Shown here piece after piece: positions 11,559-29,492 of a stretch of DNA of 29,572 nucleotides; within the stretch, counting starts at the first letter, position 1, and every line of letters begins with the position of its first letter. Under the pieces are notes generated by a model. The model saw only the letters and a program-made list of their open reading frames with translations, had not been told where the DNA came from and made no database searches. The stretch is from a virus. A program made the translations under genes and the position numbers. The DNA is taken from positions 1 to 29,572 of IMG/VR virus record IMGVR_UViG_3300042381_000509; one strand, 5' to 3'.

Positions 11559-14500
11559 CTATTCATCCAAAGCAATCAATCTGAAGTTCTTAATCTTTGG
11601 TGGTTTAGCTGGATTACCTCCACGCATAACAATCTTAGCTTGTACGCCACTAAACTCTTGTAGACCTTCTATCGTAGCTTCATATGCTCTATACAGCGCA
11701 TCACTAGGCTCAGGCGTCTTTGGTGTAAGAACGCCATTCATGTCAATATTGTATGTAGCTTTTGTCCAGTTCTTGTCAAAAATACTAACATTGTCGTTTG
11801 GTTGCTCAATTCTATAGTACAAATCAATCTCAGAATACTGATCGCGTACTGCATCAAATGTAAGTTTCAATGCATTTGATGGTCTATCCAAGTTAAGTTT
11901 CTTACACACATACTTGCTTGCACACGAGCCGCCTTCATATGCAATCTCATCAACAAAACGATCAAGTTGTGTCATAGTAACTTTTGCTGCGTCTGTGCTT
12001 GTAGTTCCATCGTTCAAGTGTTGAACAATAATTTTACACTTAACAGTTTCACTTGGTGTGTAGAACACATTTAGAATCAACTTGTTTTGAAATTGGCGAC
12101 TATCATCTGCAATTGCAATACTAGCATCATCATCGTCCGAGAATGCAAATGTTGCATACTTGCCCGAATCAAGTTGAGATAGCAATTGTGCTGTCTCTGT
12201 ATCTTGTGTAGTAATCTCCATAAACTCTCCAACAAGAGCAAGTGAAGAAGATGCAAGTGGTGCGTTGAACGGCGCATTAAGAATCATCTTAGTGTTGTTT
12301 ACCACTTTAACTACAGTTCTCTCTTCCGTTGGATTGCTCAAGTCTACAATCTTGTCACCAGGATTAACTTGACTCAAAAGTGTAGTGCCTGCTGTTGTGA
12401 CAGTCTTACTATTTGTTTCTTGAGTAAATGATCCAGTCAACACAACAGTTGAGTTAGTAAACTCAAGAGCAGTAAATGCATCAGCATCATTATTGAATAT
12501 GCTAAGTGTGTCAAAGTCTCCACTTGCGCTAGTCAGGTTGATGTTGTTGCCAAGAATGCCAGCAACACCTCTAGGATTGTCAAGTCTTGTCGAAAGTGTG
12601 GTTGCACTCAAACGAGTCTTATCAATTACAGGAGACAAGTTCTCGTTATCACTAATAAGAAGTGCTCTAACAACAGCAGACTTTCTATCTTGTAGTGCTT
12701 TGCGTTTTCCAGACCAGCCAGATGCATCCTCAACACTAAGCGACTGCTCATTTTCTGGCGACTGTAACTTCATAGGCACATAGAAGTCTACCGGAACATT
12801 AGATACAAGGTTTATTGGACTTGTCTTAACAAGATCACTGCGCTCAACTAACGATCCATTACTTTCAAACTCATTCACACCAACTGCTGGAGTTGTTTGA
12901 AGTACCCACTGAACAGAAGTTCCCGTTGGACAGAATGTGTTTGTGATGAGAGTTAAGTTGTCAAATCTCTTGTCTATGCGAACAAACGCCGTTGGCTTGC
13001 CATCACTCGATACAGGACACATCTTATACTGATCTTGTGTTAATGTGCTTCTAGCCTTGTATCCATCACCCGGACTTGATGCAATAGTTGTCTCTACAGT
13101 AAAGTAATCCGCTTCAGCATTTACTACTTTAAGTCCAGCTTGATCTTGAAGAACAGCTTTTGAGAAACCTCTCAAGTCTGTATCTGAAGATGAATCTGAA
13201 TCAATGCTAAAACGAACTCTATCACCAATAGATGTGCCATGATTTGGACACAACACACGAATCAATTTTGAGTTTGGTCGAACTTCAAGTGCATTACTTG
13301 TCAGCTCAGTCCAAGCAACAGTTTCATTTACGTAAGTAATCTCACCGACGTTAGGTACAGTATCTGCACGAGTCTTAAACTTAGCTTTTGATAAATTAAA
13401 CTTCATGCTAACTGTACTAGCAAGATCCCACTGCATGCCGTTCTTTGACTTAAAGAAACCACCATTGAAATATAGTTGTTTGTTAGTTACAACATCAGTT
13501 GTTCCAATCTTAACGTTTGTATCACCAACTTGACTGTAGTAGCCATACTCCAAGTTCATGTCGGCGGGCTCATATTGACCAGATTGTGCAACCCACACTT
13601 GATAATCGCTACTGTCAGAGAGAAGAACAAATGCATATGACTTGCCTTGCTCTAAGTAGATTGGTGAGTTGAATGTGAACCGTGTTGGCACCATGTCAGA
13701 TGACATATCACTTGATGTTATCTCTGTGTTTGCAAAGACTTCTTGTGTGTTTGTGTTATCAAGTTTGATTGTATCAGACTTTACTGAAGTGCTTGTAGAC
13801 CATTTGATTTTATTTGTTGTTGTGTCCAACACACCACCAACATCCTTAGCACTAACTCCGGCGTCAACTTGTACAATTAGCCTGTTATTTCGACTTGAAC
13901 CAGTTGTCTGAATATCAACTTTGTTGACAACAACTTGATCAGCTGTCTTAATAACTGTACCAAGATTACCACCAATAATCTGTGCTTCTGGAATACCAGT
14001 GAGCGCAACAGTTCTTAACTCAAGTCGTACAGGCACAGCATTGTTAGCTGGCTTGTTTGCAAAGAACACATCAATATCTGTGATGTAGCATCCGCCGTTT
14101 TCGTCAACTCTGAATGTTTGTGCAATTGGGTCAATGACCTCAGGTGGCTCATAGTCATAGAATGATTCTGGCTTGGATGATACTGATTCAGGGTTCACTA
14201 AGTGTGATGTCACAACAAACTGTTGAGTTTGTGTAATTGTCATCTCTTGAGTGTTTAATACTCCACGAGCAACATAGTCTGTCTGAGCGCGAGTAATTCC
14301 AAGACCTCTTTGAGTATTCTTAGAAGAAGACGACAGAACAAACTTTGCTTCACCAGTTTTAAATCGAAGACCGTCGCGATTAGGAATCTTAAACACACCA
14401 GCAATAGATCCGTTGCTGTCTGCTTTTAGTTTATCACCGTATGCATACTTAGATATTTTAATTGTGATGTTGCCCGAAGCTCCAAGAGCTCCAGCCTGTG

Positions 14501-17500
14501 ATGCCAGCAATCCTTCTTGAGTCTTCTCACGACAAATGATTACTTTATTATCACTAGAAATTCTTTCAATTTCAAACTTTCTGACAACACCAGATGTTGA
14601 TAATACTTGAACTTCACATCCAACACGCACTTTTCCAATCTTCTCTTCAGCAGTTGATGATGCACTTGGCACATTAAATGTGCTATCAGTAGATGCCCCA
14701 ACAATCTTGAAGTAGCGTACTGGCGAATCGATTGGGAGAATAGTAAATTGACCAGAGACGCCCGTATTTGTTGTATCTGTTGCAGTGTATGTAACCCAAT
14801 TGTCGCTGTCTTTTACAGCAACGGGTCTACAATGCTCCGATACTGGAACATCATCAAAGTATGCATACAAGTTTGAACTAGGTCTAAATGCTTTTCCAGT
14901 GAACGTAATCTCACGAGATCTCATGAACTCGATCTGAGTGGTTTCATCTTTAGTGAGTGCTTTTGTAGTTTCTACAGAAGTCTTAACTAACTCACTTTGC
15001 ATTCCAAGTCTAATTGAAGTTGTAGTTCTTGTGAAAGTCTCTTTAGTTTGTCGTTGAATTAAAGCACCACTACGAAGGTTGATATCAACAATTTCACCCT
15101 CATTAAGATATCCTTTAGGCACTTTAAATTTTTTAGTCTTTCGAGCAAGCTCTTTTTCTTTACCAGTCAATTTGTCAAAGTGAACGTGTCCACCCTCAAG
15201 CATCTTTAATCGACCAGTCTTTTTCTTGCCACTCTTAGGTCCATTGACAACTGATGTTATAGACCCACTATAATTAATATCTCCTGTAATGAGTTTTCGT
15301 GCAGCTTGATATGCCGAATCGTCATACACTAAAATCTCAGAGTATTTTGTTTCGCGCCACTCATCACTCCATGGGAACAAATCAATTTGACCAACATAGG
15401 TCAACACATCATATGGATTTACACTCACAACTTTTGTTGCTAATGGTTGAGATATGAACTCTGAACGAGTGTATGGTAATGTATATAACTCACCAGTCTT
15501 TTGATATCCATTGTTATCATCTTGTCCCAATCTGAGCGTGTCAATAGTGTCAGCAAAGATTGGATTTAACAAATCCTCTTCAAGTTTGAAGTTGTCTGAT
15601 GTAACCAACGGTCTAGCAACATGCTCTTGTGTAATATCAATCGAGCATGAAAAATCTGGACTATTAGTATCAGCAGATTCAAATGAGTTAAAGCTATCTA
15701 CCAAGAAGCCGTTCTTGAAACGAACATTGCCGTTTGCATCAGTGATGCTCATGCGCGATGTTTCTTGCTCAAGCAAACTGAGTGCCGTGTAGTATTCAAG
15801 ATTCTCAATGCGTCTCTCAAGTTTTCCGATATCACGCATAGTGTATCGTCTGTTGTCTTTGACTTTGAGAATGCAAGAATTTTTATCAATGCCATATGGA
15901 TCATTGCTCAATTCGACAAGAGTCATTGCTGTGTCAATATCATCAGCATCAACTGGCTCATCGTCAGCAACACCCATACTAAGGGTGAAGTTCTTTGTCT
16001 TGCTATCAAGAACAACTTTGTCTCTACGACCATTGTATGCAAAATAATCGATAGTTAAGAATCCTTTAGGAGCTCGACCAGATTTTGTTTCCGCAACACC
16101 TTCAACTGAAGCCTTTCGTCTAAAGTCTAAACAGTCTGACAACATGTACTGAATACCATCACTTGATGTGTGTGTTGGTATTTCATTGTAGTTGATACCA
16201 GACTCGTGTGTGTATGAATTTACAGTAAAGAAATCACCAGCATCTTCGCCATCTTGATGGTCAAAGTAGTCATACTCAACACGAACTTTACCAGTGAGCT
16301 TTTTGTAACTAGCTTGTAAGTAAACTGATCCAGTTCCATACTCGTATGGAGTTTGACCATTATCGAATCTGTATAGTGCAGTAACGTCAACATCACCATC
16401 GTTGAGTGTTGATGACATAGATGGTTCAGTATCATCATTTTTTGATGCAACAATACGAGTAATTCTGAATACATCACAATCATCTAAATGAATTTCAGAG
16501 TTGTTAGATGCAGCAACAACTTTTACACCCTTCCCTGGATTAGCTGTGGTAGGAGTGAATGAGTCTGGATTAGCTGCGTGTGTATAGTTGCCTGATGCAT
16601 CAAACGAACCATAGCGAAGAACTTTCTTCTTCTCAATAACATTTGTTTTAACTACAGGCACAACAATATCATATCTAATACTAGATTGTGCATCATTATC
16701 TGTAAATGAAAATGTGAGCGTCTTATTTGTAAGATTAGATGATACATTGACTGTTCCATCTGTAGATGGAGCAGACGCACCAGATTCAACTTTCATGATA
16801 GTCTTAGTTGAGCCATTAGTGCGAATTACTTTGTATGTGTACTCGTTTGGCACAAACGTATGCTTAACAACATTAGCAACACTAATTTCAATCTTCTTAG
16901 TTGTTTGATCAACACTGCGATCAGTGAAGTATTCATCGATGGTGTACTGATTCTCAGAAGTTGTTGCTGGAATACCAGATACACCCTGTGTTCTTACACT
17001 CGACACATAGCTGTCTGCAAGTTTGTATATCAAACCTGTTTCATTTGTCGATGACTCAAGTTGTGTGTATGTAACAAAAATAGAACTTGCACTGATTGTT
17101 GGTGTGCCTTCGTCTTCTGTTTTTAATACAATTGCCGTATCGGATGTTGGTAACGAAACAACTCTATAGTATTCTTGTGTAGAATCTGCATAAACGTAAT
17201 CGTTTACCCTGAGTAATTGGCTGGCATCATTTTTCCATTTTGTTCCTGTACCAGTTGTTGTGCCAGCTGCTGATGTGATTGTACCAATGAGGTCTTGAGT
17301 GACTAGCGATACGTGTGCAAAGATTCCTTCTGCACTTGAATGAATAGTCTTAACAGAAGCAATTGTGTTTGCTCCAATCAACTCAATGTCTGTAAGATAT
17401 GCTCTGTAGTATCCTGCACCTTCTGTGGCATCTGGCTCAATAGCAACAAGCCTTGCTGTACCAATTTTAGTGCCAGCAGAATTAAGTGTGCTTGCATATG

Positions 17501-19007
17501 TGTATTGTTTTGGATTAGATGTGCCAACGGCGTGTGTTCCCACGCGACGAGCATCATACAAATCAACAGACACAAATTTAGGGAACGTGATATTACCGAC
17601 AACATCATTTACCAGAATATAGCGACCAAGTTCTGTCTCAACAGTTTTCTGGTCGATAAAACGTGTCGTTCTTGATTTGGGAACATCAACACTAGATTTT
17701 GCAATCTTACGAATCTCATATCCCTTAACATAGGCTTTACCAGCATCAATCCTAAGAGTTAAGAAGCTATCACACAGTGCTTTAAATGATGTTGCATCAC
17801 CACTGTCATCGTATGATGTTCCTGGATAGAAAATTTCAACACCATCTACTTCAACTGAACATGATGTGTTTACACCAAACTTTTTGAGTGCATACGCCGC
17901 AGCATCTTGCGATGTTGTAAATTGAAACTCAGTGATGTTATGTGCACCATTGTTTTGAGTCTGTTCATCTCTCAAGAACTCTTTAAGTTCAATGTTTAAA
18001 CCTTCAACAACATAGTCGCCAGACTCATCATAAGTTCTACGAGCAAGTGTATCAACAATTGTGCCATAGTCTGGAGCGTCTACAATAAACGCAACTTGAC
18101 CATTAAGAACTTCTACTAATGTGATGAAGTTATCTGGCTTACTCGCCGTCGCATTATAAGATATCTGAGTTAATTGTGCATCGATATGAAAACGATCTGC
18201 ACCTGGAGCAGAATAGTTTGGAGAGCCAAGAGCATTGTCGAGAAGATTTGGATCATCTTGAAATGTTTTGATGCTCTCAGTCATCAACAAACCAACGCTT
18301 GCCGTTGGCACATCATTCCATAACTCTTGATTGATAGCATCATCAGATGTCTCATCAGCACCTGGCGCAATAAAGTGTGTTTGTGCATCAACGTAAACAA
18401 AATATCCGTTGTAGAAGTATACACCTTCTTGAATTTGTACGGATGCAACTGTGCCAACTTTCTTTCCAGATGTTGATGGAATTGTAGCTGAACGAGTATC
18501 ATCACCAACAAGTTGAACTGTATCACCTTTAGCAAAAGTTGAGTGCTCACCATTTGATGATCCAGTAATTATGTTCAAGAAAAAACGAATTTCTCCGCCA
18601 TTTTCTCCAATACTATCTGGACCTCTGTAGTCAATGATTGATGCTGTAAGTCCTTCCCTATCGCCAATATTTACGCGAATTGTTTTGCCAACCCAAGTTG
18701 CTCTAATAGCTTTGTGGATATCCTCTGATACACTATACTCAGGCAATACATCCTTTAACGACAATTTAATGAAATGTACGTTGCGAGTGTATCGAACTGC
18801 GTTGCTTGTGCCGGGAATTACATTTGAACCTTGCTTGAAGATGTGTGTACCAAAACGCTCAACCTGAGATTGTAACAAAGTCTGAAGTTGTGTCAACTCT
18901 CTAGCTTGTACAGCACGACCTGGACGAAACAAAATTTGATAATACTTATCAGAATTTTTATGGTCGTCAAAATATGGTGATTGATTTAAGTTCAGCTTTT
19001 TTGCCAT
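11559..19007 (-). CDS. Giant DUF4815-type virion structural protein (2482 aa)
   Basis: The start is taken at the ATG at 19007; an in-frame TTG four codons earlier is less likely, and neither has a clear ribosome-binding site. The N-terminus (PYFDD, then YYQILFRPGRAVQARELTQL, then QVERFGTHIF) is the hallmark of DUF4815 proteins of marine T4-like phages. Further recognisable stretches are LSDCLDFRR, RRYTMRDIGKLERRIENLEY, FMRSREITFTGKAFRPSSNL and FDDVPVSEHCRP. Later come an EVFANTEITSSD..SPIYLEQGKSYAFVLL region and a C-terminus with AKIVMRGGNPAKPPKIKNFR. A lysine-rich patch lies at about 1256-1299. The gene follows gp8, where T4 has gp9 and gp10, so I infer a peripheral baseplate or fibre-attachment protein. 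It is more than four times longer than T4 gp10. It has its own late promoter at 19036-19043. Precise identity with any T4 protein is not established. Confidence 0.88.
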   Translation of the reverse strand: MAKKLNLNQSPYFDDHKNSDKYYQILFRPGRAVQARELTQLQTLLQSQVERFGTHIFKQGSNVIPGTSNAVRYTRNVHFIKLSLKDVLPEYSVSEDIHKAIRATWVGKTIRVNIGDREGLTASIIDYRGPDSIGENGGEIRFFLNIITGSSNGEHSTFAKGDTVQLVGDDTRSATIPSTSGKKVGTVASVQIQEGVYFYNGYFVYVDAQTHFIAPGADETSDDAINQELWNDVPTASVGLLMTESIKTFQDDPNLLDNALGSPNYSAPGADRFHIDAQLTQISYNATASKPDNFITLVEVLNGQVAFIVDAPDYGTIVDTLARRTYDESGDYVVEGLNIELKEFLRDEQTQNNGAHNITEFQFTTSQDAAAYALKKFGVNTSCSVEVDGVEIFYPGTSYDDSGDATSFKALCDSFLTLRIDAGKAYVKGYEIRKIAKSSVDVPKSRTTRFIDQKTVETELGRYILVNDVVGNITFPKFVSVDLYDARRVGTHAVGTSNPKQYTYASTLNSAGTKIGTARLVAIEPDATEGAGYYRAYLTDIELIGANTIASVKTIHSSAEGIFAHVSLVTQDLIGTITSAAGTTTGTGTKWKNDASQLLRVNDYVYADSTQEYYRVVSLPTSDTAIVLKTEDEGTPTISASSIFVTYTQLESSTNETGLIYKLADSYVSSVRTQGVSGIPATTSENQYTIDEYFTDRSVDQTTKKIEISVANVVKHTFVPNEYTYKVIRTNGSTKTIMKVESGASAPSTDGTVNVSSNLTNKTLTFSFTDNDAQSSIRYDIVVPVVKTNVIEKKKVLRYGSFDASGNYTHAANPDSFTPTTANPGKGVKVVAASNNSEIHLDDCDVFRITRIVASKNDDTEPSMSSTLNDGDVDVTALYRFDNGQTPYEYGTGSVYLQASYKKLTGKVRVEYDYFDHQDGEDAGDFFTVNSYTHESGINYNEIPTHTSSDGIQYMLSDCLDFRRKASVEGVAETKSGRAPKGFLTIDYFAYNGRRDKVVLDSKTKNFTLSMGVADDEPVDADDIDTAMTLVELSNDPYGIDKNSCILKVKDNRRYTMRDIGKLERRIENLEYYTALSLLEQETSRMSITDANGNVRFKNGFLVDSFNSFESADTNSPDFSCSIDITQEHVARPLVTSDNFKLEEDLLNPIFADTIDTLRLGQDDNNGYQKTGELYTLPYTRSEFISQPLATKVVSVNPYDVLTYVGQIDLFPWSDEWRETKYSEILVYDDSAYQAARKLITGDINYSGSITSVVNGPKSGKKKTGRLKMLEGGHVHFDKLTGKEKELARKTKKFKVPKGYLNEGEIVDINLRSGALIQRQTKETFTRTTTSIRLGMQSELVKTSVETTKALTKDETTQIEFMRSREITFTGKAFRPSSNLYAYFDDVPVSEHCRPVAVKDSDNWVTYTATDTTNTGVSGQFTILPIDSPVRYFKIVGASTDSTFNVPSASSTAEEKIGKVRVGCEVQVLSTSGVVRKFEIERISSDNKVIICREKTQEGLLASQAGALGASGNITIKISKYAYGDKLKADSNGSIAGVFKIPNRDGLRFKTGEAKFVLSSSSKNTQRGLGITRAQTDYVARGVLNTQEMTITQTQQFVVTSHLVNPESVSSKPESFYDYEPPEVIDPIAQTFRVDENGGCYITDIDVFFANKPANNAVPVRLELRTVALTGIPEAQIIGGNLGTVIKTADQVVVNKVDIQTTGSSRNNRLIVQVDAGVSAKDVGGVLDTTTNKIKWSTSTSVKSDTIKLDNTNTQEVFANTEITSSDMSSDMVPTRFTFNSPIYLEQGKSYAFVLLSDSSDYQVWVAQSGQYEPADMNLEYGYYSQVGDTNVKIGTTDVVTNKQLYFNGGFFKSKNGMQWDLASTVSMKFNLSKAKFKTRADTVPNVGEITYVNETVAWTELTSNALEVRPNSKLIRVLCPNHGTSIGDRVRFSIDSDSSSDTDLRGFSKAVLQDQAGLKVVNAEADYFTVETTIASSPGDGYKARSTLTQDQYKMCPVSSDGKPTAFVRIDKRFDNLTLITNTFCPTGTSVQWVLQTTPAVGVNEFESNGSLVERSDLVKTSPINLVSNVPVDFYVPMKLQSPENEQSLSVEDASGWSGKRKALQDRKSAVVRALLISDNENLSPVIDKTRLSATTLSTRLDNPRGVAGILGNNINLTSASGDFDTLSIFNNDADAFTALEFTNSTVVLTGSFTQETNSKTVTTAGTTLLSQVNPGDKIVDLSNPTEERTVVKVVNNTKMILNAPFNAPLASSSLALVGEFMEITTQDTETAQLLSQLDSGKYATFAFSDDDDASIAIADDSRQFQNKLILNVFYTPSETVKCKIIVQHLNDGTTSTDAAKVTMTQLDRFVDEIAYEGGSCASKYVCKKLNLDRPSNALKLTFDAVRDQYSEIDLYYRIEQPNDNVSIFDKNWTKATYNIDMNGVLTPKTPEPSDALYRAYEATIEGLQEFSGVQAKIVMRGGNPAKPPKIKNFRLIALDE

Positions 19008-19035
19008 AGTATTGTTCAACTAAAAAGTATGTAAC

Positions 19036-21153: not shown

Positions 21154-23031
21154 CTATTCCACAATCTTGATGCCTACATTATCTGATTTATATTGCCTAC
21201 CAAGATCATCAATCACAAACAATGCAAGGCGACATGCGATTGCATTCACATCAACAGACACATCACCAGTTGCTTGCTCACCGCGAGCAACCTCTATACC
21301 ATCTTTCTTTAATATCCATGTATAATTTGCTTCAGAGTCATTTGTTACACTAAATGTTACAGTAACCGCGTCACCCTCTGTAGCTTGGATGACGTTGCGC
21401 TCATGTTGCGCAACAATCTCAATTCTATCAGGACTTTGGATAATTACAGCATCGGATTGCAATCTGATTGATTTAGTTCTATGTGTCTCCAACTCACGTG
21501 GACTGTTTACCCCAATCTTTGATATCTCAAATGTGGAAACTGGTGTTGCTGCAAGTCTATTATCAAGACCTGTTCCAAAATGATGTGAATTTAACCCATC
21601 AAATTCTGCATTCGCATCATACTTCATGAATGGTTTATAACTGAACTTGTCACGCAACACAGATTCGTATGTGGCACCAAGCACATTTGAGCTGGTGATT
21701 TCGTTTGGATGTATAATCTCTGTTCTGACACTCTGAAGTGTGGATGATGTTGGTGTTGTGGTTGCAATGATGTGAATGTGTGTGGCATCTTCAGGCAATT
21801 TAACACCAACATTCAAAAAAGTTTCAATTGCAACTGAACCAAAGTGTTTGAATCCAAGAGGGTGAACAGCCTTGTTCATCACATCTTTGTACTTGTCAAA
21901 CGATTCGCTTGTGTTTGTCACATAAGAAAACTGTTGGTAGTAATAACCATCGTGAATATATTTTGTTGTGCTGAGTTGTCCGTCTTCGTTTCTAAAGTAC
22001 CCTGGATAATTTGTTGTCGATCCTAAGTTGAGTGTAACTATGGCAATATCTGTATTTTCAACAGCAATACTAACATCAGAGCTGTGTGCAAGATGAGTTT
22101 CATTAATACACTTAATGTTTTTGGGCGGTCGTTGTGTGTCGTAGCCAACACCATACTCTTGAATGTAGAATCGAGTGATGCGACCATTGTCATCAACTTC
22201 TGCAACACGAATGATTGCACCTTTGCCGATGTAGTCTACTTTGAATTTGTCACCCACTTTGTAGTTTGCGCCAGGGTGAACAATACGAACAGTCTCAGGT
22301 ATTGGACTGATGGTTGCCCGTACTGTACCATCTTCCGATACGACTGTTTCCCCTGGCAAAAATTTTCCAGTAATGCTTGCTCTGTTTAATACAAGCTCGT
22401 GTGCTGAGTAGTTGCCAAAGTTGATGCCGTATAAACGTTCAACAAATGCGCTAGAATTGTTTGTTGTGCCACGAATTTTTTGCGCACGAAATTTCTTTAC
22501 ATCACCAACAACGTTTGTTAAACGTAAAGTTTTGTTTTGAATCCATTTACCATCGGATGTGCGAAGAATATCATTTTTGGGATAATACAAATATGAATCT
22601 GCATTGAAAAGAATTCTGAACAAAAATTTAAATGACTTCTCAGTACCTTTTGCTCCGTAGAACTGCTTAATATTTTTTAATACAGTAGCTTTGTCTGCAA
22701 CAATGTTGCGGGGAATGATAGACAAAAATTCATTAAAAAAGTGCTCTACATACTCATCTGATACTGTGTCAATGTCTTGATTCTGAGGCAATCTTCGTGC
22801 TTCGTGCAAAGTCTGTCCGTTAGATTCCATCCAACGATAGTATGCTTCCATAAACTCAACAAAACGAGGATGTTCTTCAGAAACAAACGCGGGAAATTGA
22901 GATGATATGTGTGATGAAACACCAGGCAAAGGATCCGTATTAGATATAGAGCCACCCAAACCAACTGGTGAATTCAATGGCGTGACTTGTAGCTGTGGTT
23001 CGGATATCGATGCCGGTGATATAAACGTCAT
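21154..23031 (-). CDS. Baseplate wedge-region protein in the gp7 position, with C-terminal Ig-like domain (625 aa)
   Basis: The start codon overlaps the gp6 stop by 4 bases (ATGA). A glycine/proline-rich N-terminus leads into a conserved helical segment, FPAFVSEEHPRFVEFMEAYY (46-65) and FYGAKGTEKSFKFLFRILF (124-142), a type common in T4-like marine phages. The middle is beta-rich (VRIVHPGANYKVGDKFKVDY at 248-267; NEDGQLSTTKYIHDGYYYQQ at 348-367). Residues about 538-625 look like an Ig-like domain: EGDAVTVTFSV, then NYTWILKKDG with a central W, then LFVIDDLGRQY. T4 order places gp7 between gp6 and gp8, so gp7 is the natural equivalent, but T4 gp7 is 1032 aa and I cannot show homology by eye. 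The structural role is confident; the gp7 identity is not. Confidence 0.78.
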   Translation of the reverse strand: MTFISPASISEPQLQVTPLNSPVGLGGSISNTDPLPGVSSHISSQFPAFVSEEHPRFVEFMEAYYRWMESNGQTLHEARRLPQNQDIDTVSDEYVEHFFNEFLSIIPRNIVADKATVLKNIKQFYGAKGTEKSFKFLFRILFNADSYLYYPKNDILRTSDGKWIQNKTLRLTNVVGDVKKFRAQKIRGTTNNSSAFVERLYGINFGNYSAHELVLNRASITGKFLPGETVVSEDGTVRATISPIPETVRIVHPGANYKVGDKFKVDYIGKGAIIRVAEVDDNGRITRFYIQEYGVGYDTQRPPKNIKCINETHLAHSSDVSIAVENTDIAIVTLNLGSTTNYPGYFRNEDGQLSTTKYIHDGYYYQQFSYVTNTSESFDKYKDVMNKAVHPLGFKHFGSVAIETFLNVGVKLPEDATHIHIIATTTPTSSTLQSVRTEIIHPNEITSSNVLGATYESVLRDKFSYKPFMKYDANAEFDGLNSHHFGTGLDNRLAATPVSTFEISKIGVNSPRELETHRTKSIRLQSDAVIIQSPDRIEIVAQHERNVIQATEGDAVTVTFSVTNDSEANYTWILKKDGIEVARGEQATGDVSVDVNAIACRLALFVIDDLGRQYKSDNVGIKIVE

Positions 23032-24836
23032 GACAACTTAATCTTATTTAAGTTTACTGTTGATACGCTAATGTCTTCTTCTTCTAATCTGAGAATCTGA
23101 TTACGAAGTGAAATCACATCATCATTCTTTGGCTTAATGAAGATATCAATATATATCTGATCGCGTGGAATTCTGTCCACATAGATGTTTTCAATGTGTA
23201 TCTTACCGTTCGCGTAGTCCATTGTGCCTACGTTATTGTTTACAACTACACGAACGCTGTTGAGTGTGTAGTATAGATACAGTTTGCCAAGTCCATCATC
23301 AGCAAGTTTTACTGAAGTGCCTTTGTAAATAAATTCTGTGCTGTTAATTGCAGAGTTGTTGTTCTTAGCATCACCGGTGTCAATTGCGTTATTGAGTGTA
23401 ATGTCTTTATTAAAGTATGTGTAAAACGGTGGCACAAGTCTATACTTGATCTTTACGTCTGTTGTGCTACTTTCAATTGCACTATCGAGTGAGTCAATTG
23501 TGCGAACTAATTTTGAGTGTCTAAAGTCCGCATCAAAACCAGACAAGTTCGTGGTTTTAAAGTTCTTAATACCATCAACAACAATCTTCTTGAGATCGCC
23601 ATCTTGTTTGTTGGTCTTATCAGCAAAGTAGTTTACTGTTGTGTTTGTTGTGATATAGATGTACTCAGGCTCAACAAGCTCAACATCAAGAGACAAAATG
23701 CTCCGAGGTTTAATGTAGTTGTCAATCAAACGTTTCTTATCATCTGTGTTCAATTCAAAACCAGAGATTGGCTTAATTGAACAAAACACTTTACCATAGA
23801 TAGGTGGATCATTCTCTTCACCACCCCACACACGAAGATGTTCAATAATTGAAATATCTTTCTTTAAGATTGTTTCATAGTCTAGTTTTGTTACTGCTCT
23901 GTTTTGTGCTGCAAATGCGCGAGGCGCAACAAGTTTGATTGAATCGTTTGATTCTGGACCAACATAGCTTGTTGCTGCTTGTGTGCACGTGATTGTTGTG
24001 CGACCAGAAGCATCTGGGGAAAGAAGTTTTGCCGGTGCAAATGTTTTGGCATTTTTGGCACCATCACCAGATGATGCAATGTAGTCAAGTGTTACTATAT
24101 TGCCGGTCTCAAGTCCTTTACCAAGAATGCCATCGCCAAACACAACTTCATATAAACCATCACCATATGGTTGTATAAAATACACCGGCATCTTTGGCGA
24201 CAATAAGTTAATGTCTTTAGCTTGTGTAAACACTTCTTCAGCTGTGTTTGTTGCAGATTGTTTTATGGTAACAACAAGAGTTGAAAGGTCAACAAGAGCG
24301 TTTGGTATCACATAGTGTTGTTTCAACGGAGCATTCAAGTCAACAACATACTGATGCTTTAGTCGCGTACCTTGTATGAGTGTAAGACCAGTTGTTGCAT
24401 ATTTCTTTGCAGAGTTTAATTCTAAGTATAGCGAACGCTCTGGAATAAATGTGTGCTTTTTATTATCAACAGCTGTAGTAAACTCTGTGTCTCTGTTGAT
24501 GTAAATACGAGATTGAGGATTAGCAACACTTGACACATCAATTGAGATGTCAACCACAGCCCGTAATGAATTTACACTGCGTGGAACGTAGCCCAAATGT
24601 TTTGCTCTTGATATGATACTTTCACGCATCGAGGCTGAATCTAAGAACATTTCACTGGAAAGCATATTCAAGTAAAAGCCGTTGTATGCTGTGTTGTATG
24701 CAAGAACGTCTAGTAGGATTGATAATGACGAGCCGTCAAAGTTGTAGTCTTTGAACTGTTCTTGACTTTTGAGAAATTGTTTTAAGTTTGACTTGATGGT
24801 ATCAAAATCTAACTTGTCATACTTTACATGTGTCAT
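23028..24836 (-). CDS. gp6: Baseplate wedge subunit gp6-like (602 aa)
   Basis: Gp6 dimers form the inner ring that holds the wedges together in the T4 baseplate. Family signatures are clear: LLDVLAYNTAYNGFYLNML (41-59) near the N-terminus, VVFGDGILGKGLETGNIV (231-248), the baseplate-J-like APRAFAAQNRAVTKLDYETI (304-323) and VWGGEENDPPIYGKVFCSIK (336-355). The C-terminal third is beta-rich and ends in a leucine-rich helix with NQILRLEEED. Length is close to T4 gp6 (660). The gene begins 1 bp after the gp25 stop and overlaps the next gene by ATGA, so the three are co-translated from the late promoter before gp25. Confidence 0.95.
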   Translation of the reverse strand: MTHVKYDKLDFDTIKSNLKQFLKSQEQFKDYNFDGSSLSILLDVLAYNTAYNGFYLNMLSSEMFLDSASMRESIISRAKHLGYVPRSVNSLRAVVDISIDVSSVANPQSRIYINRDTEFTTAVDNKKHTFIPERSLYLELNSAKKYATTGLTLIQGTRLKHQYVVDLNAPLKQHYVIPNALVDLSTLVVTIKQSATNTAEEVFTQAKDINLLSPKMPVYFIQPYGDGLYEVVFGDGILGKGLETGNIVTLDYIASSGDGAKNAKTFAPAKLLSPDASGRTTITCTQAATSYVGPESNDSIKLVAPRAFAAQNRAVTKLDYETILKKDISIIEHLRVWGGEENDPPIYGKVFCSIKPISGFELNTDDKKRLIDNYIKPRSILSLDVELVEPEYIYITTNTTVNYFADKTNKQDGDLKKIVVDGIKNFKTTNLSGFDADFRHSKLVRTIDSLDSAIESSTTDVKIKYRLVPPFYTYFNKDITLNNAIDTGDAKNNNSAINSTEFIYKGTSVKLADDGLGKLYLYYTLNSVRVVVNNNVGTMDYANGKIHIENIYVDRIPRDQIYIDIFIKPKNDDVISLRNQILRLEEEDISVSTVNLNKIKLS

Positions 24837-24837
24837 A

Positions 24838-25230
24838 CTATCTTAGCCTTTCTAAGAAGAAGTCTACTGTTACAACTTCTGAAATTTGATCTATAGCAAA
24901 TATCAAATACACGTTATATCCATTCTCATCTGGCGATACTCTTACATCAAGTTTGATAATCTTCGCCCGTGGCTCAAACGCGTGAATAACATCTGAGATC
25001 AGGATGCGAATACTCATTTCAGTCATTGGCGTTATTGGCTCAAACAATAACTGTTTCAAGTTGGCGCCAAGACTTGGCTGAAACATGCGCTCATAGTATC
25101 CAGTAAACATGAGGTTTTTGATCGCCCTCTTGACAGCATCACCATCTTTCAATGGAACAATGTCCCCTGAAACAGGATGTGCTACAAAGTCGAAATCCAA
25201 ATCTGAAATTTTCTTAGTTGTCTGATCCAT
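24838..25230 (-). CDS. gp25: Baseplate wedge subunit gp25-like (130 aa)
   Basis: This is the GPW/gp25 family, the lysozyme-like wedge protein that links gp6 to the tail sheath base; the family has no lysozyme activity. The signatures are NLMFTGYYERMFQPSLG (39-55), LLFEPIT (61-67) and the conserved E-P-R at 86-88. Length matches T4 gp25 (132). I use the ATG at 25230; an upstream in-frame TTG at 25248 would add FCCNLM-like residues and lies too close to the promoter. No strong ribosome-binding site is visible before either. It sits between the gp5 and gp6 genes. Confidence 0.95.
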   Translation of the reverse strand: MDQTTKKISDLDFDFVAHPVSGDIVPLKDGDAVKRAIKNLMFTGYYERMFQPSLGANLKQLLFEPITPMTEMSIRILISDVIHAFEPRAKIIKLDVRVSPDENGYNVYLIFAIDQISEVVTVDFFLERLR

Positions 25231-25255
25231 GAGGTTGCAACAAAACAATACGTTT

Positions 25256-25312: not shown

Positions 25313-28081
25313 CTATGCCTTTCTCGAAGTGCCCGGTAGCGGCGCAGGAGAGTCGCTAGGACGAACGCTATTGCGTTTATTATTCTTAGATGTTCTCTCG
25401 TTTGCTCTGTCGTCTTCTGTTATTGTAGACGCCGTAATGCTACCAGTTGCTGTTCCAAAATTGGCTGTTGCTGCGTCATTCTTAATAACTTTCTCATTGA
25501 ATCCATTTGGAAACGGAGGTGAACATTGGTGTCTGGATGCTGGATCTGCAATAAAACTTACAATCTTGGTTGCGCCAGATCCATCTTTGACAACCCAAAA
25601 CATGTTTTTTGGATATGCTGCTCCAGGCTTGTTCCACCTACAGAGATGCCTAGCACCATCGAGAAACATGGTGTTCATTCGAGGTCTGTCAATAACAGCA
25701 CCCATCTTGAAAACAGGTCGAGTAATCGTCCACTGAGTTACTGTGCCACTAATGTTGAGGTACTTCATCTGAACAACTTCTTTTTCGCCAGTGTCGAGTG
25801 CTTCGTATAGTTCATGATTGCCACCTAAAGCACTGAGTGTGACTAAGTTCCCGTCACTCTCTGAGAGTGGTTTCCATACGTCGCCGTTTTTACCATTTGG
25901 TAATAAGTAACCAAACTTAGGCGATGCTGTGCCATCTTCTTCACTACCAACTTCAGGTCCAGCTGTCATTACGTCAAAATCTAACTGCGCATCATCTTCG
26001 TTAAACAATCCGTCAAGGTTTTGGTGTCTGATTGCGCTGTCAAGAATCAAGTTCTCAATACCGCCAATCTCCCAGATGAGTTGTTTTGGATATGCCTTAC
26101 CAGGCTTAGGCCACCTATACATCGTTCTACCATCTAAGAACGTGTCTCTGCGAGGCGTGCCAAACATGTCTGTGATGTCTTTGCCCTTTTCATGAATAGG
26201 TCTAACTGTGTCCCAGAATGTTTGGTTACCATCTTCGTGTTGATATGCAATGCGCACTGCTTCAAGCTCACCTGTAGGAATAGCTTCATAGAACTTATGT
26301 TCAGCTGCATTACCATGTGGCGCAAGTGTTACAAGTTTCTTATCACTGTCTGATATTGGCTTCCATACAGCACCAGGTCCAGAGTTAGGAAGCAAGAACC
26401 CAAACTTCTTTGACGCATCTTCTGGTGACTCTTTATACCAGCTATCATCACCAGCTTTGTTTTCTTCAATGCCTCGCGGCGTAGCAATAGGTGGCAAGAA
26501 CAATAATGGATCTACTGGCTCTACTACAGCTGCGACCATTGCGGTGTGTGCCATCAAGAAAATTGATTTGATATCAACAGACACCATGTTGACTGATGTG
26601 AGACCACCACCATGACCTTGCATAGTAGTAATTGGCGCAGAGAGTTTTATGTGTTGCTTTGATTTAAGTTCAATTGTTGCATCTGAGTCGATGACAATTT
26701 TCTTCTTTGCTTTAATGTGAAGTTCACCATTCTTAACACAAAAGAATGAATCACCTAATACGTGCTTCCATGTGTCTTCATCAATGATTGTATATGTGCC
26801 ACCTTTAACTCGTGTGTTACCATCACCATCTACTACAGTGTTAAGGTCTTCACCAACTTGAGTGTTGAGTGTAGAGCCCGCATTTAATGTAATTGATTGA
26901 TCTGCTTTTAGTCTAAGTGCTTCAGTTGCATGAAAGTTCATGCTGCCACCTGCGGCACTATAAAAGTCTTTGATTACAAAGTTGTAATCATTCTTTTTGA
27001 CTTTTGTGACCTGTGTACCATCTGGATGAATTTCTCTAAATGTGCCAGAGCGATGATACCAATGAAGTCGTTCTGCGCCAGGCGTATCGTCTATCTCAAC
27101 AACATGGCCAGCTTCACTCTCGTATACGTGATTAAATGGATACTTAGCATCATATGGTGTTTCAGGCTCATCAAATGGTTGTGGCGCAACTGTAGCTTGT
27201 AGACCAACGCCACCATCTTCAAATCCTGCTGTTGTGCCTGTTGCAAGTTGACCTTTCTTTAAGCCAACAATAGTTTGATCAATCTTCTCATTACGGGCGA
27301 GCCTGCTTGTAGTTGGCTCCATAAGCCTGTCTTGCAGAGGGTATGGAGACTGTGTTGGTGGCGTCAACTCTTCAGGAGTAATTTTTACATTGCCAGCTGC
27401 ATCAAGAAACTTAGATATAACGTTTGCTGCGACGCCTAGTAGTTGTGCTGCTCCACCAAAAACAGATTGACCAAAAATGTTTGTTGCTGCTTTGATAATG
27501 AGCGACGAATCGTTTGCATCGTATGATCCGTCTTTATTAAGATCAAACTTATAGTTTGCAGGATCGTAAAACTTGATCAACTCACCAAACGCAACATTGC
27601 TACCAGGCAACTTGTCTGGATTAAAAAAACGTCCACTAGGTGTGTCTTCTGTTTTTTCTGCGTTACTGCCTTCTGTTTTCTCGTCAAGCTCTGCCGTGTT
27701 CAGATCAGGTGGACGCGGACAACTATCAGGTGTAACTTGTTCAGGTGGAGTTGGATCACCGAAGCCAAGCTCAGGTGTGGCAGGCTTTTCATCGATGCCT
27801 GGTATTGACCCAACGACGATTGGTCGCTGTGCTTCAGAACCATCCATGAAAAAGCCCCATACCCAATCTCCTTCTTTGAGACCAACGGGGTTGCGACCAG
27901 TATCAAATGGAACACTTGGCATCGCCCACGGCAATTCTTCTGTGGGTATTTGTTGTCTATCTTCTGAGTGACACCCAAAGATGCGCACACGAACGCGACC
28001 AAGCATGATAGGATCTTTTCGATCTTCTACCACACCTTTCCACCAAATGAAGCCGTCTTTTCCTAAAAATGTTGAGTCCAT
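25313..28081 (-). CDS. gp5: Baseplate hub/spike protein gp5-like, without visible lysozyme, with extended tip (922 aa)
   Basis: Residues 1-95 form the OB-fold of gp5/VgrG-type spikes, with GFIWWKGVVEDRKDPIMLGR, VRIFGCHSED, LPWAMPSVPF and EGDWVWGFFMDG. In T4 a lysozyme domain follows; here 100-320 is Pro/Glu-rich with two EF-hand-like loops, DLNKDGSYDAND (180-191) and D227-E238, and no lysozyme signature. From about 327 the conserved VVEIDDTPGAERLHWYHRSG leads into the triple-strand beta-helix (about 375-510), with QSITLNAGS, GGTYTIIDED and QHIKLSAPI. Two copies of a domain of about 135 residues then follow (559-691 and 722-856), plus a polar Ser/Arg-rich tail. In T4 gp5 ends with the helix (575 aa). 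A perfect late promoter TATAAATA stands 26 nt before the ATG. The hub identity is firm; the function of the added domains is unknown. Confidence 0.92.
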   Translation of the reverse strand: MDSTFLGKDGFIWWKGVVEDRKDPIMLGRVRVRIFGCHSEDRQQIPTEELPWAMPSVPFDTGRNPVGLKEGDWVWGFFMDGSEAQRPIVVGSIPGIDEKPATPELGFGDPTPPEQVTPDSCPRPPDLNTAELDEKTEGSNAEKTEDTPSGRFFNPDKLPGSNVAFGELIKFYDPANYKFDLNKDGSYDANDSSLIIKAATNIFGQSVFGGAAQLLGVAANVISKFLDAAGNVKITPEELTPPTQSPYPLQDRLMEPTTSRLARNEKIDQTIVGLKKGQLATGTTAGFEDGGVGLQATVAPQPFDEPETPYDAKYPFNHVYESEAGHVVEIDDTPGAERLHWYHRSGTFREIHPDGTQVTKVKKNDYNFVIKDFYSAAGGSMNFHATEALRLKADQSITLNAGSTLNTQVGEDLNTVVDGDGNTRVKGGTYTIIDEDTWKHVLGDSFFCVKNGELHIKAKKKIVIDSDATIELKSKQHIKLSAPITTMQGHGGGLTSVNMVSVDIKSIFLMAHTAMVAAVVEPVDPLLFLPPIATPRGIEENKAGDDSWYKESPEDASKKFGFLLPNSGPGAVWKPISDSDKKLVTLAPHGNAAEHKFYEAIPTGELEAVRIAYQHEDGNQTFWDTVRPIHEKGKDITDMFGTPRRDTFLDGRTMYRWPKPGKAYPKQLIWEIGGIENLILDSAIRHQNLDGLFNEDDAQLDFDVMTAGPEVGSEEDGTASPKFGYLLPNGKNGDVWKPLSESDGNLVTLSALGGNHELYEALDTGEKEVVQMKYLNISGTVTQWTITRPVFKMGAVIDRPRMNTMFLDGARHLCRWNKPGAAYPKNMFWVVKDGSGATKIVSFIADPASRHQCSPPFPNGFNEKVIKNDAATANFGTATGSITASTITEDDRANERTSKNNKRNSVRPSDSPAPLPGTSRKA
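25514..26407 (-). repeat. Tandem duplicated domain in the gp5 C-terminus
   Basis: Residues 559-691 (26009-26407) and 722-856 (25514-25918) share a colinear series of motifs: FGFLLPN/FGYLLPN, VWKPISDSD/VWKPLSESD, LVTL, YEAIPTGELE/YEALDTGEKE, a W..(T/V)RP turn, FLDG, RWPKPGKAYPK/RWNKPGAAYPK and (S/P)A(I/S)RHQ. The copies are clearly diverged, so the duplication is old. I do not recognise the fold. Confidence 0.9.
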
Positions 28082-28122: not shown

Positions 28123-28530
28123 CTATGGTAGCTCTGAAAGATCATCCACATTCAAATCTTCTTTTCGTGTGTGCTCATCACATGCTGTGTACAACCAAGC
28201 CTGTCCTCTAAGTTTGCCTGGCTTGCCACATTGTTCGCAAGTGCAGGCAGATTTCTTTTCTGCGTCGGCAATACACAGCTCAATTAGTTCATCATGATAC
28301 GACACATAAAATCGCAACGTACCATATTTTTCTTTTACTTGTAATGCCACAATATCTTTGGCAAGATCCTTATGAAGGATGTTTAGACGACTTTGTATCT
28401 TTTGACACAACTCTACAAGCAAATCTGCCCAGCCGTCGCCACATTCAAAATAAAAATTTAACTCCCCATTAACCGTTTCAAATAGAGACGGGCATGCATC
28501 AATAATGTGCTTTGTGTTCTGCTCATTCAT
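28123..28530 (-). CDS. Zinc-ribbon-like phage protein of unknown function (135 aa)
   Basis: The N-terminal part has an acidic GDGWADLLVELC stretch (31-42) and the conserved VKEKYGTLRFYVSYHDE (65-81). The C-terminal part has C98xxC101 followed by C117xxH120 (CEQCGKPGKLRG, then TACDEHT), a likely zinc-binding ribbon; C96 is also present. Proteins with 'KEKxGxLRFY' plus this Cys/His cluster occur in many phages without assigned function. It begins 3 bp after the 100-aa gene and ends just before the gp5 late promoter. It could bind nucleic acid or protein; there is no direct evidence for either. Confidence 0.8.
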   Translation of the reverse strand: MNEQNTKHIIDACPSLFETVNGELNFYFECGDGWADLLVELCQKIQSRLNILHKDLAKDIVALQVKEKYGTLRFYVSYHDELIELCIADAEKKSACTCEQCGKPGKLRGQAWLYTACDEHTRKEDLNVDDLSELP

Positions 28531-28856: not shown

Positions 28857-29492
28857 TTAAGAATCGAACCAACAAACCAATCGAGTTTCCGTATCTGCAT
28901 TTTCACTGACACGCTCAAGCGACATCATTGTGCCGACTGCTGCATAGAGTACGCTGTTTTCATAATCTGGAAACGAATACTTCATCAACTCGCGCGCGCC
29001 AGTGCTTTTGATAAAATTGAGCATGTCAATTTTCTTTTGTTTTGATATGTTTGCCCAAAATTCAACGGTCTCTAACAAATACATCTTGCGAATTATCAGA
29101 AGTTCATCCAGTGTAAGCCAAGTTGGTGTGTGAAAATTAGGATTCGTGATTCTCAGTTTTGAATCATCAACGTATATTGAATATGCTTCTGACACATACT
29201 CTTTAGCAAGTGATTCACGAATTGAGTTTGTAGGGGCACGTGGCGCTTCATCAGATATAACATTTAAATAGTATGCATCTGTAACTTCGTACGACAAGGT
29301 TGGCGTAGTAGGAATACCTTTAGGTTTTATGATTGGTGGAACACTGTGACGAACTCCTGCCATGAGACCGAAAAGAATGTAGTCTCTGCCAAAAGATAGC
29401 TCACCAGAAAAACAACGAACAAAACAATTGCTGGTAGTCTTATGCTCAGTCTTAGAGAAAAATTCAATATGCGCATGAATGTCACAACCCAT
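28857..29492 (-). CDS. MGCDIH-type phage protein of unknown function (211 aa)
   Basis: The N-terminus MGCDIHAHIEFF is a conserved opening of a family found in many phages and some bacterial genomes. The conserved C3, D4, H6 and H8 suggest metal or ligand binding, but no reaction is known. A later SFGRDYILFGLMAGVR is also typical of the family. The rest is mixed helix and strand, with TWLTLDELLII and FIKSTGARELMKY near the end. A sigma70-like promoter with an extended -10 lies directly upstream (29499-29527), so it is probably expressed before the late structural genes. No ribosome-binding site is visible before the ATG. Confidence 0.82.
   Translation of the reverse strand: MGCDIHAHIEFFSKTEHKTTSNCFVRCFSGELSFGRDYILFGLMAGVRHSVPPIIKPKGIPTTPTLSYEVTDAYYLNVISDEAPRAPTNSIRESLAKEYVSEAYSIYVDDSKLRITNPNFHTPTWLTLDELLIIRKMYLLETVEFWANISKQKKIDMLNFIKSTGARELMKYSFPDYENSVLYAAVGTMMSLERVSENADTETRLVCWFDS

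Follow-up and report, generated by a model that had tools for sequence, protein, structure and literature searches.

A conserved loop of dockerin/EF-hand type in the OB-to-needle linker of a gp5-like spike protein from uncultured T4-like phages

In an uncultured T4-like phage represented by a virus record of 29,572 bases (IMGVR_UViG_3300042381_000509, hereafter the window), the OB-fold of the gp5-like spike protein is closely followed by a module of ~40 residues, i.e., one loop of the dockerin/EF-hand type, the helix that follows it and a conserved leading LPGxNxAFGxL. The loop occurs at the same place in 27 distinct sequences (window included), which share 38-94% identity (lowest ~38%) and which all come from uncultured contigs. 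The module probably stabilises, through bound calcium, the linker between the OB-fold and the needle. No lysozyme domain was detected in the protein.

Identity, layout and gene context of the gp5-like protein

The gp5-like baseplate hub / central spike protein (922 aa) is encoded at 25313-28081 on the minus strand, as are all the features of the protein given below. It matches PHROG 430 «baseplate hub subunit and tail lysozyme» (E=3e-78), Pfam Gp5_OB (PF06714, E=3.6e-11, above the cut-off) and the T4 gp5 structures, the latter both by sequence (phmmer, E=5.6e-30) and by predicted fold (Foldseek, E~1e-12). The N-terminal OB-fold covers residues 1-110 (27752-28081), with the motif GFGDPT at its end, as delimited by Pfam Gp5_OB/Phage_base_V and by the alignment with T4 and KVP40. 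The spike start and the triple beta-helix region extend over residues 303-500 (26582-27175). The beta-helix is assigned by homology, residues 303-452 being aligned with residues 376-525 of T4 gp5 in the phmmer match mentioned above; its Pfam support is thin, i.e., PF22178 is marginal (0.1) and DUF2345 (residues 380-496) is below its cut-off.

Two copies of a beta-rich domain are found at the C-terminus. Copy 1 (residues 557-690, 26012-26413) was delimited by alignment and has a pLDDT mostly of 82-89 in the AlphaFold2 (AF2) model, and copy 2 (residues 718-856, 25514-25930) was recognised by blastp, in which two query ranges correspond to the single copy of the relatives. According to blastp and the alignment, the doubling of the domain is restricted to the window and L002-L006, the relatives having one copy. 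The whole region (25514-26413, residues 557-856), which is well predicted and situated after the spike, is covered by no Pfam family, and this domain could occupy the needle tip. No PAAR-like gene was found between gp5 and gp25 in the window.

The gene context is that of a baseplate hub: GPW_gp25 (24838-25248), a gp6-like gene (23028-24836), another wedge protein gene and a gp8-like gene lie downstream, and T4 gp5 likewise has gp25, gp6 and other wedge genes in its vicinity. Two small genes (28857-29492 and 28123-28530, minus strand) recur upstream of gp5 within the clade; one, with 211 aa in the window, begins with MGCDIHxHxEF, whereas a CPSLF...ECGDGW motif characterises the other. The window copies of both have no Pfam match, and similar ORFs are also located upstream of gp5 in L094, L097, L101 and, partly, L099. 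Further away, a 2486-aa ORF (11559-19019, minus strand) has a strong match to DUF4815 (E=1.3e-50); lysozyme was not found in it.

Conservation of the calcium-type loop

The loop, DLNKDGSYDAND (residues 180-191, 27509-27544), has its ligand positions at D1, N3, D5 and D12, with Gly at position 6, i.e., the loop of type I dockerins (D1, N/D3, D5, G6, D12, then a helix), and the Dockerin_1 match is located at residues 178-197. It belongs to a larger module (residues 158-198, 27488-27610) of the form LPGxNxAFGxL...YKFDxNxDGxYxxxD plus helix, which is conserved in the 27 sequences. The fit of this stretch to the dockerin/EF-hand loop had been noticed in a sequence-only reading, which also listed a second loop at residues 227-238 (27368-27403); both positions are exact and the fit of the first loop is confirmed. 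Its resemblance goes beyond chance since only 8 of 20,000 shuffled versions of the protein, with the same composition, contain the pattern D.N.DG.[hydrophobic]...D, and since the ligand columns are among the most conserved of the linker.

Homologues were collected from three IMG/VR scans, and the gp5 ORF was extracted from each. The 27 sequences have the same order, i.e., OB-fold, GFxDPT, PRPP, a variable stretch, then LPGxNxAFGxL...YKF-[DxNxDGxYxxxD]...(FFTG)...SRYPLEDRLxEPSTSRLARNE. In an alignment of 21 sequences, D180 and D191 are invariant while N182, D184 and G185 are conserved at more than 90%. The sequence-weighted mean conservation of these five columns is 0.96; the corresponding means are 0.81 at the spike start, 0.70 in the OB region and 0.39 across the linker (residues 113-246). 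When five linker columns were drawn at random 100,000 times, the value of 0.96 was never reached. Such a conservation of the ligands, above that of the OB-fold over this range of identity, suggests that they are under selection. The variants are mild: Asn replaces the Gly of position 6 in L027, and position 5 is Asn in L036 and L101.

Four relatives (L018, L034, L099 and L100) have another DxDxDG-like stretch shortly after the loop, at a position that is not homologous to residues 227-238 of the window. This is expected if selection acts on metal binding. The arrangement presumably resembles the tandem calcium loops of thrombospondin type 3 repeats.

Resemblance to dockerins and EF-hands

When the profile of the segment was compared with all PDB chains, the best match was a dockerin (2y3n, E=0.0096); the rest of this weak list is mostly made of dockerins and EF-hand proteins, the remaining matches being scattered among unrelated proteins. 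Pfam Dockerin_1 matches 14 of 25 members (best E=5.7e-4). The segment of the window is matched with E=0.024 and 15.3 bits, i.e., below the curated cut-off of 22.9, and the match spans positions 35-54 of the 57 of the profile, which corresponds to one loop plus helix. In NCBIfam, two clade members (the window not being one of them) match «holin-associated N-acetylmuramidase», with a best value of 0.0013.

The AF2 models of the full-length protein and of a 115-aa segment are poor overall (mean pLDDT 62-63 for both). Nevertheless, they agree on a better-scored island at residues 161-200 (block means 72-82, most of the other linker being below 50) and on a helix after the loop, equivalent to the F-helix of EF-hands. 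This helix covers residues 189-198 (27488-27517) according to DSSP on the full-length model and residues 189-201 in the segment model. Before the loop, these low-confidence models contain no proper helix but at most helical turns of 3 residues. The helix-loop-helix of an EF-hand is thus not predicted at this loop, a helix being present only after it. Foldseek with the 115-aa model gave no significant match (best E about 5).

With type I dockerins (PF00404) the module shares the loop D-x-N-x-D-G-x-x-x-x-x-D followed by a helix; however, dockerins have two repeats while the window has only one conserved loop, its score is below the Pfam cut-off and 16 related contigs, which are fragments, yielded no cohesin partner. 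With EF-hands (PF13202, PF13405, PF00036) it shares a 12-residue loop with ligands at positions 1, 3, 5 and 12 and Gly at position 6. It differs from them by Asp instead of Glu at position 12, Tyr/Phe at position 8, the lack of a proper predicted E-helix and the lack of pairing within the chain. Because it consists of one loop and the following helix, with no preceding helix, the module as it appears from the sequences and the predicted models is half a dockerin, i.e., a single EF-type loop, and not an EF-hand pair.

The second loop

The letters of the second loop, DAAGNVKITPEE (residues 227-238, 27368-27403), are present as listed earlier. This loop is nevertheless unsupported as a calcium site because its position 3 has no acidic or amide side chain, because its literal pattern, which was chosen after seeing the sequence, occurs in 222 of 20,000 shuffled proteins, and because the insertion that contains it is restricted to six sequences (the window and L002-L006) and absent elsewhere in the clade, the loop being degraded in three of the six (L003-L005, e.g., NPDGTPK-DKEE). 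Its pLDDT in the full-length AF2 model is about 40-50. The second loop is thus probably not a real calcium site, and of the pair initially proposed only the first member stands; as the second is not conserved, an EF-hand pair within the chain is rejected.

Lysozyme and the junction with the spike

Neither the protein of the window nor 20 relatives have a lysozyme or peptidase domain according to Pfam, and PF00959, the family of the T4-type tail lysozyme, is not matched. The same library detected PF00959 in T4 gp5 (E=1.3e-12), Phage_lysozyme2 and Peptidase M15 in Ochrobactrum phage OC, and VanY, just below its cut-off, in Methylophilales phage Melnitz. A hydrolase hidden in residues 100-320 was also considered and rejected, no hydrolase family being matched there. 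The absence of lysozyme from this gp5-like protein, already noticed from the sequence, is confirmed by Pfam, with T4 gp5 as positive control.

T4 gp5 (tail lysozyme, PDB 1k28 and 1pdl) shares with the window protein the OB-fold, a long linker and the trimeric beta-helix spike. In T4, the lysozyme is tied to the OB domain and to the helix domain by two long linkers that run along the beta-helix (PMC3004832). The junction alignment provides a landmark, namely GFxDP then YP...EPDTNRLARN in KVP40, D479 and ACP17, the T4 version being GFSDPTGQYPRRLGNDTNVLN. In the window the second part of this landmark corresponds to SPYPLQDRLMEPTTSRLARNE (residues 245-265, 27287-27349), a motif common to KVP40 and D479 (YP..EPDTNRLARN) and to T4 (YPRRLGNDTNVLN). 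The lysozyme of T4 (PF00959) is inserted after the YP...DTNxLA landmark, whereas the module of the window, which has no such lysozyme, precedes YPL and splits it from GFxDPT; the window protein also differs from T4 gp5 by its extra C-terminal beta domains. The location previously described as that of the T4 lysozyme is thus correct as regards the linker, which is the same OB-to-helix linker, and incorrect as regards the insertion point.

Since the T4 lysozyme comes after the landmark and the module before it, the latter is not a same-site replacement of the former. Moreover, gp5 proteins without lysozyme are common among the relatives sampled, i.e., KVP40, D479, ACP17 and a large marine group. 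According to its record, the gp5 of KVP40 has no lysozyme domain, the aligned D479 and ACP17 leave no room for one, and no such insert was seen in the sequences read from the marine group (L038-L090), as judged from length and by eye. The proposal that cell-wall cutting was lost at that place is consequently not retained, and «lost and replaced» is not supported as the natural reading of the module relative to the T4 lysozyme.

The gp5 of Vibrio phage KVP40, which lacks lysozyme too, shares YPLxDxLxEPDTNRLARN upstream of the spike but has no calcium-type module, GFNDPNEKYPLADKL being uninterrupted. The gp5/OB proteins of Ochrobactrum phage OC and Melnitz also have extra domains, inserted ahead of the spike within the OB-to-helix linker. 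These are of wall-cutting types (M15 peptidase, Phage_lysozyme2, VanY) and are located just before the GFxDP landmark, unlike the calcium-type loop of the window, located between GFxDPT and YPL. In Melnitz (L172, 1501-4544), gp5 consists of two separate proteins: an OB protein, the end of which is VanY-like, and a spike protein, at the start of which the GFxDP-YP landmark is found.

Phylogenetic distribution

In a tree built on the OB and spike-start regions, all the loop-bearing sequences are grouped in one clade (support 100/99). Of the three label changes in the tree, one is a gain, one is a loss (L146) and the third is due to a mislabelled row: L026, labelled as having no loop, shares its contig with L010, and the loop is present in the L010 fragment. 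The history of the loop as read from this tree is thus one gain at the base of the clade and one clear loss. L146 (a 167.8-kb contig) is the only clade member without the loop; its gp5 has four cysteines (CEVIPRRDPQC...CC) in the corresponding stretch of the linker, at about residues 115-150.

Between the OB-fold and the module, long inserts (about 100-240 aa) that appear to be helical are found in L028 (residues 128-370), L027 and L036 and in L008, L009 and L011 (about 125-225); those of L028 and L008 have no Pfam match. In cultured phages, tblastn did not find the loop, and only the downstream spike-proximal motif was matched, in Vibrio phages. No earlier description of an EF-hand/dockerin module in a gp5 spike was found in open-licence papers, which is weak evidence.

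Proposed function and alternatives

The best-supported function, which we regard as probable, is that of a calcium-stabilised knot in the OB-to-needle linker. The loop would most likely bind one Ca2+ per chain, i.e., three per spike. The bound calcium would fold an otherwise flexible stretch into a knot, which would fix the linker between the OB collar and the beta-helix needle and probably packs on the collar or hub. A calcium-stabilised linker had been proposed from the sequence, and this part of the proposal is kept, with one loop instead of a pair. The single loop counts against a calcium knot, since an EF-type loop without a partner often has a weak affinity for calcium.

Dockerin_1 being the best family match of the segment, the loop might instead be half of a docking device recruiting another virion protein (a separate lysin, a chaperone or a wedge protein) in the manner of dockerin and cohesin. 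The conserved LPGxNxAFGxL, which has no obvious internal role, could then be a contact surface, and a stand-alone PF00959 lysozyme exists in the contigs of two loop-bearing relatives. However, only one of the two loop-helix repeats of dockerins is conserved here, a search of 16 related contigs, themselves fragments, yielded no cohesin, and beside gp5 no gene could be recognised as a lysin in the window or in five relatives, whose neighbours were judged from gene lists. In the closest large relative, the PF00959 lysozyme is ~62 kb off, in a 162-aa open frame of endolysin-like size. Docking is thus unlikely, and the docking site for a separate lysin suggested by the sequence-only reading is not upheld. 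Single EF-type loops can also have a moderate affinity, suited to sensing, and the module is situated at the OB-to-needle junction. One dockerin-type loop per chain might hold the needle to the hub when loaded in calcium-rich surroundings and let go in the calcium-poor cytoplasm, loosening the spike from the hub and opening the tube. The beta-helix of T4 must indeed dissociate during infection (PMC3004832). Nevertheless, most gp5 proteins function without the loop and L146 has lost it altogether, and we consider a calcium-responsive joint of this kind distinctly unlikely.

Two other explanations have a still smaller place. The presence of two loops in some relatives and one in most, in a linker otherwise free to change, would agree with a vestige, devoid of present function, of a calcium-binding domain captured earlier (dockerin or thrombospondin-3-like); the selection on the ligands that their conservation indicates makes this very unlikely. 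As for a divergent wall-cutting domain concealed in the linker, the OB-to-helix linker of OC and Melnitz does contain tail-lysozyme domains and peptidase domains of the M15/VanY type, but the linker of the window has ~135 residues, is predicted with low confidence except for ~40 of them and has no Pfam hydrolase match, and such a domain is scarcely to be expected.

Significance

The linkers of gp5 are known mainly as the place where the lysozyme of T4 is attached. The presence of a conserved calcium-type module close to that place, though not at the same point, together with the peptidase inserts of other phages, suggests that different lineages load the OB-to-needle linker with different small modules. 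These results help to avoid the annotation of these gp5 proteins as lysozymes. If the loop binds calcium, it would also offer a defined place to look for calcium-dependent infection in the phages of this clade.
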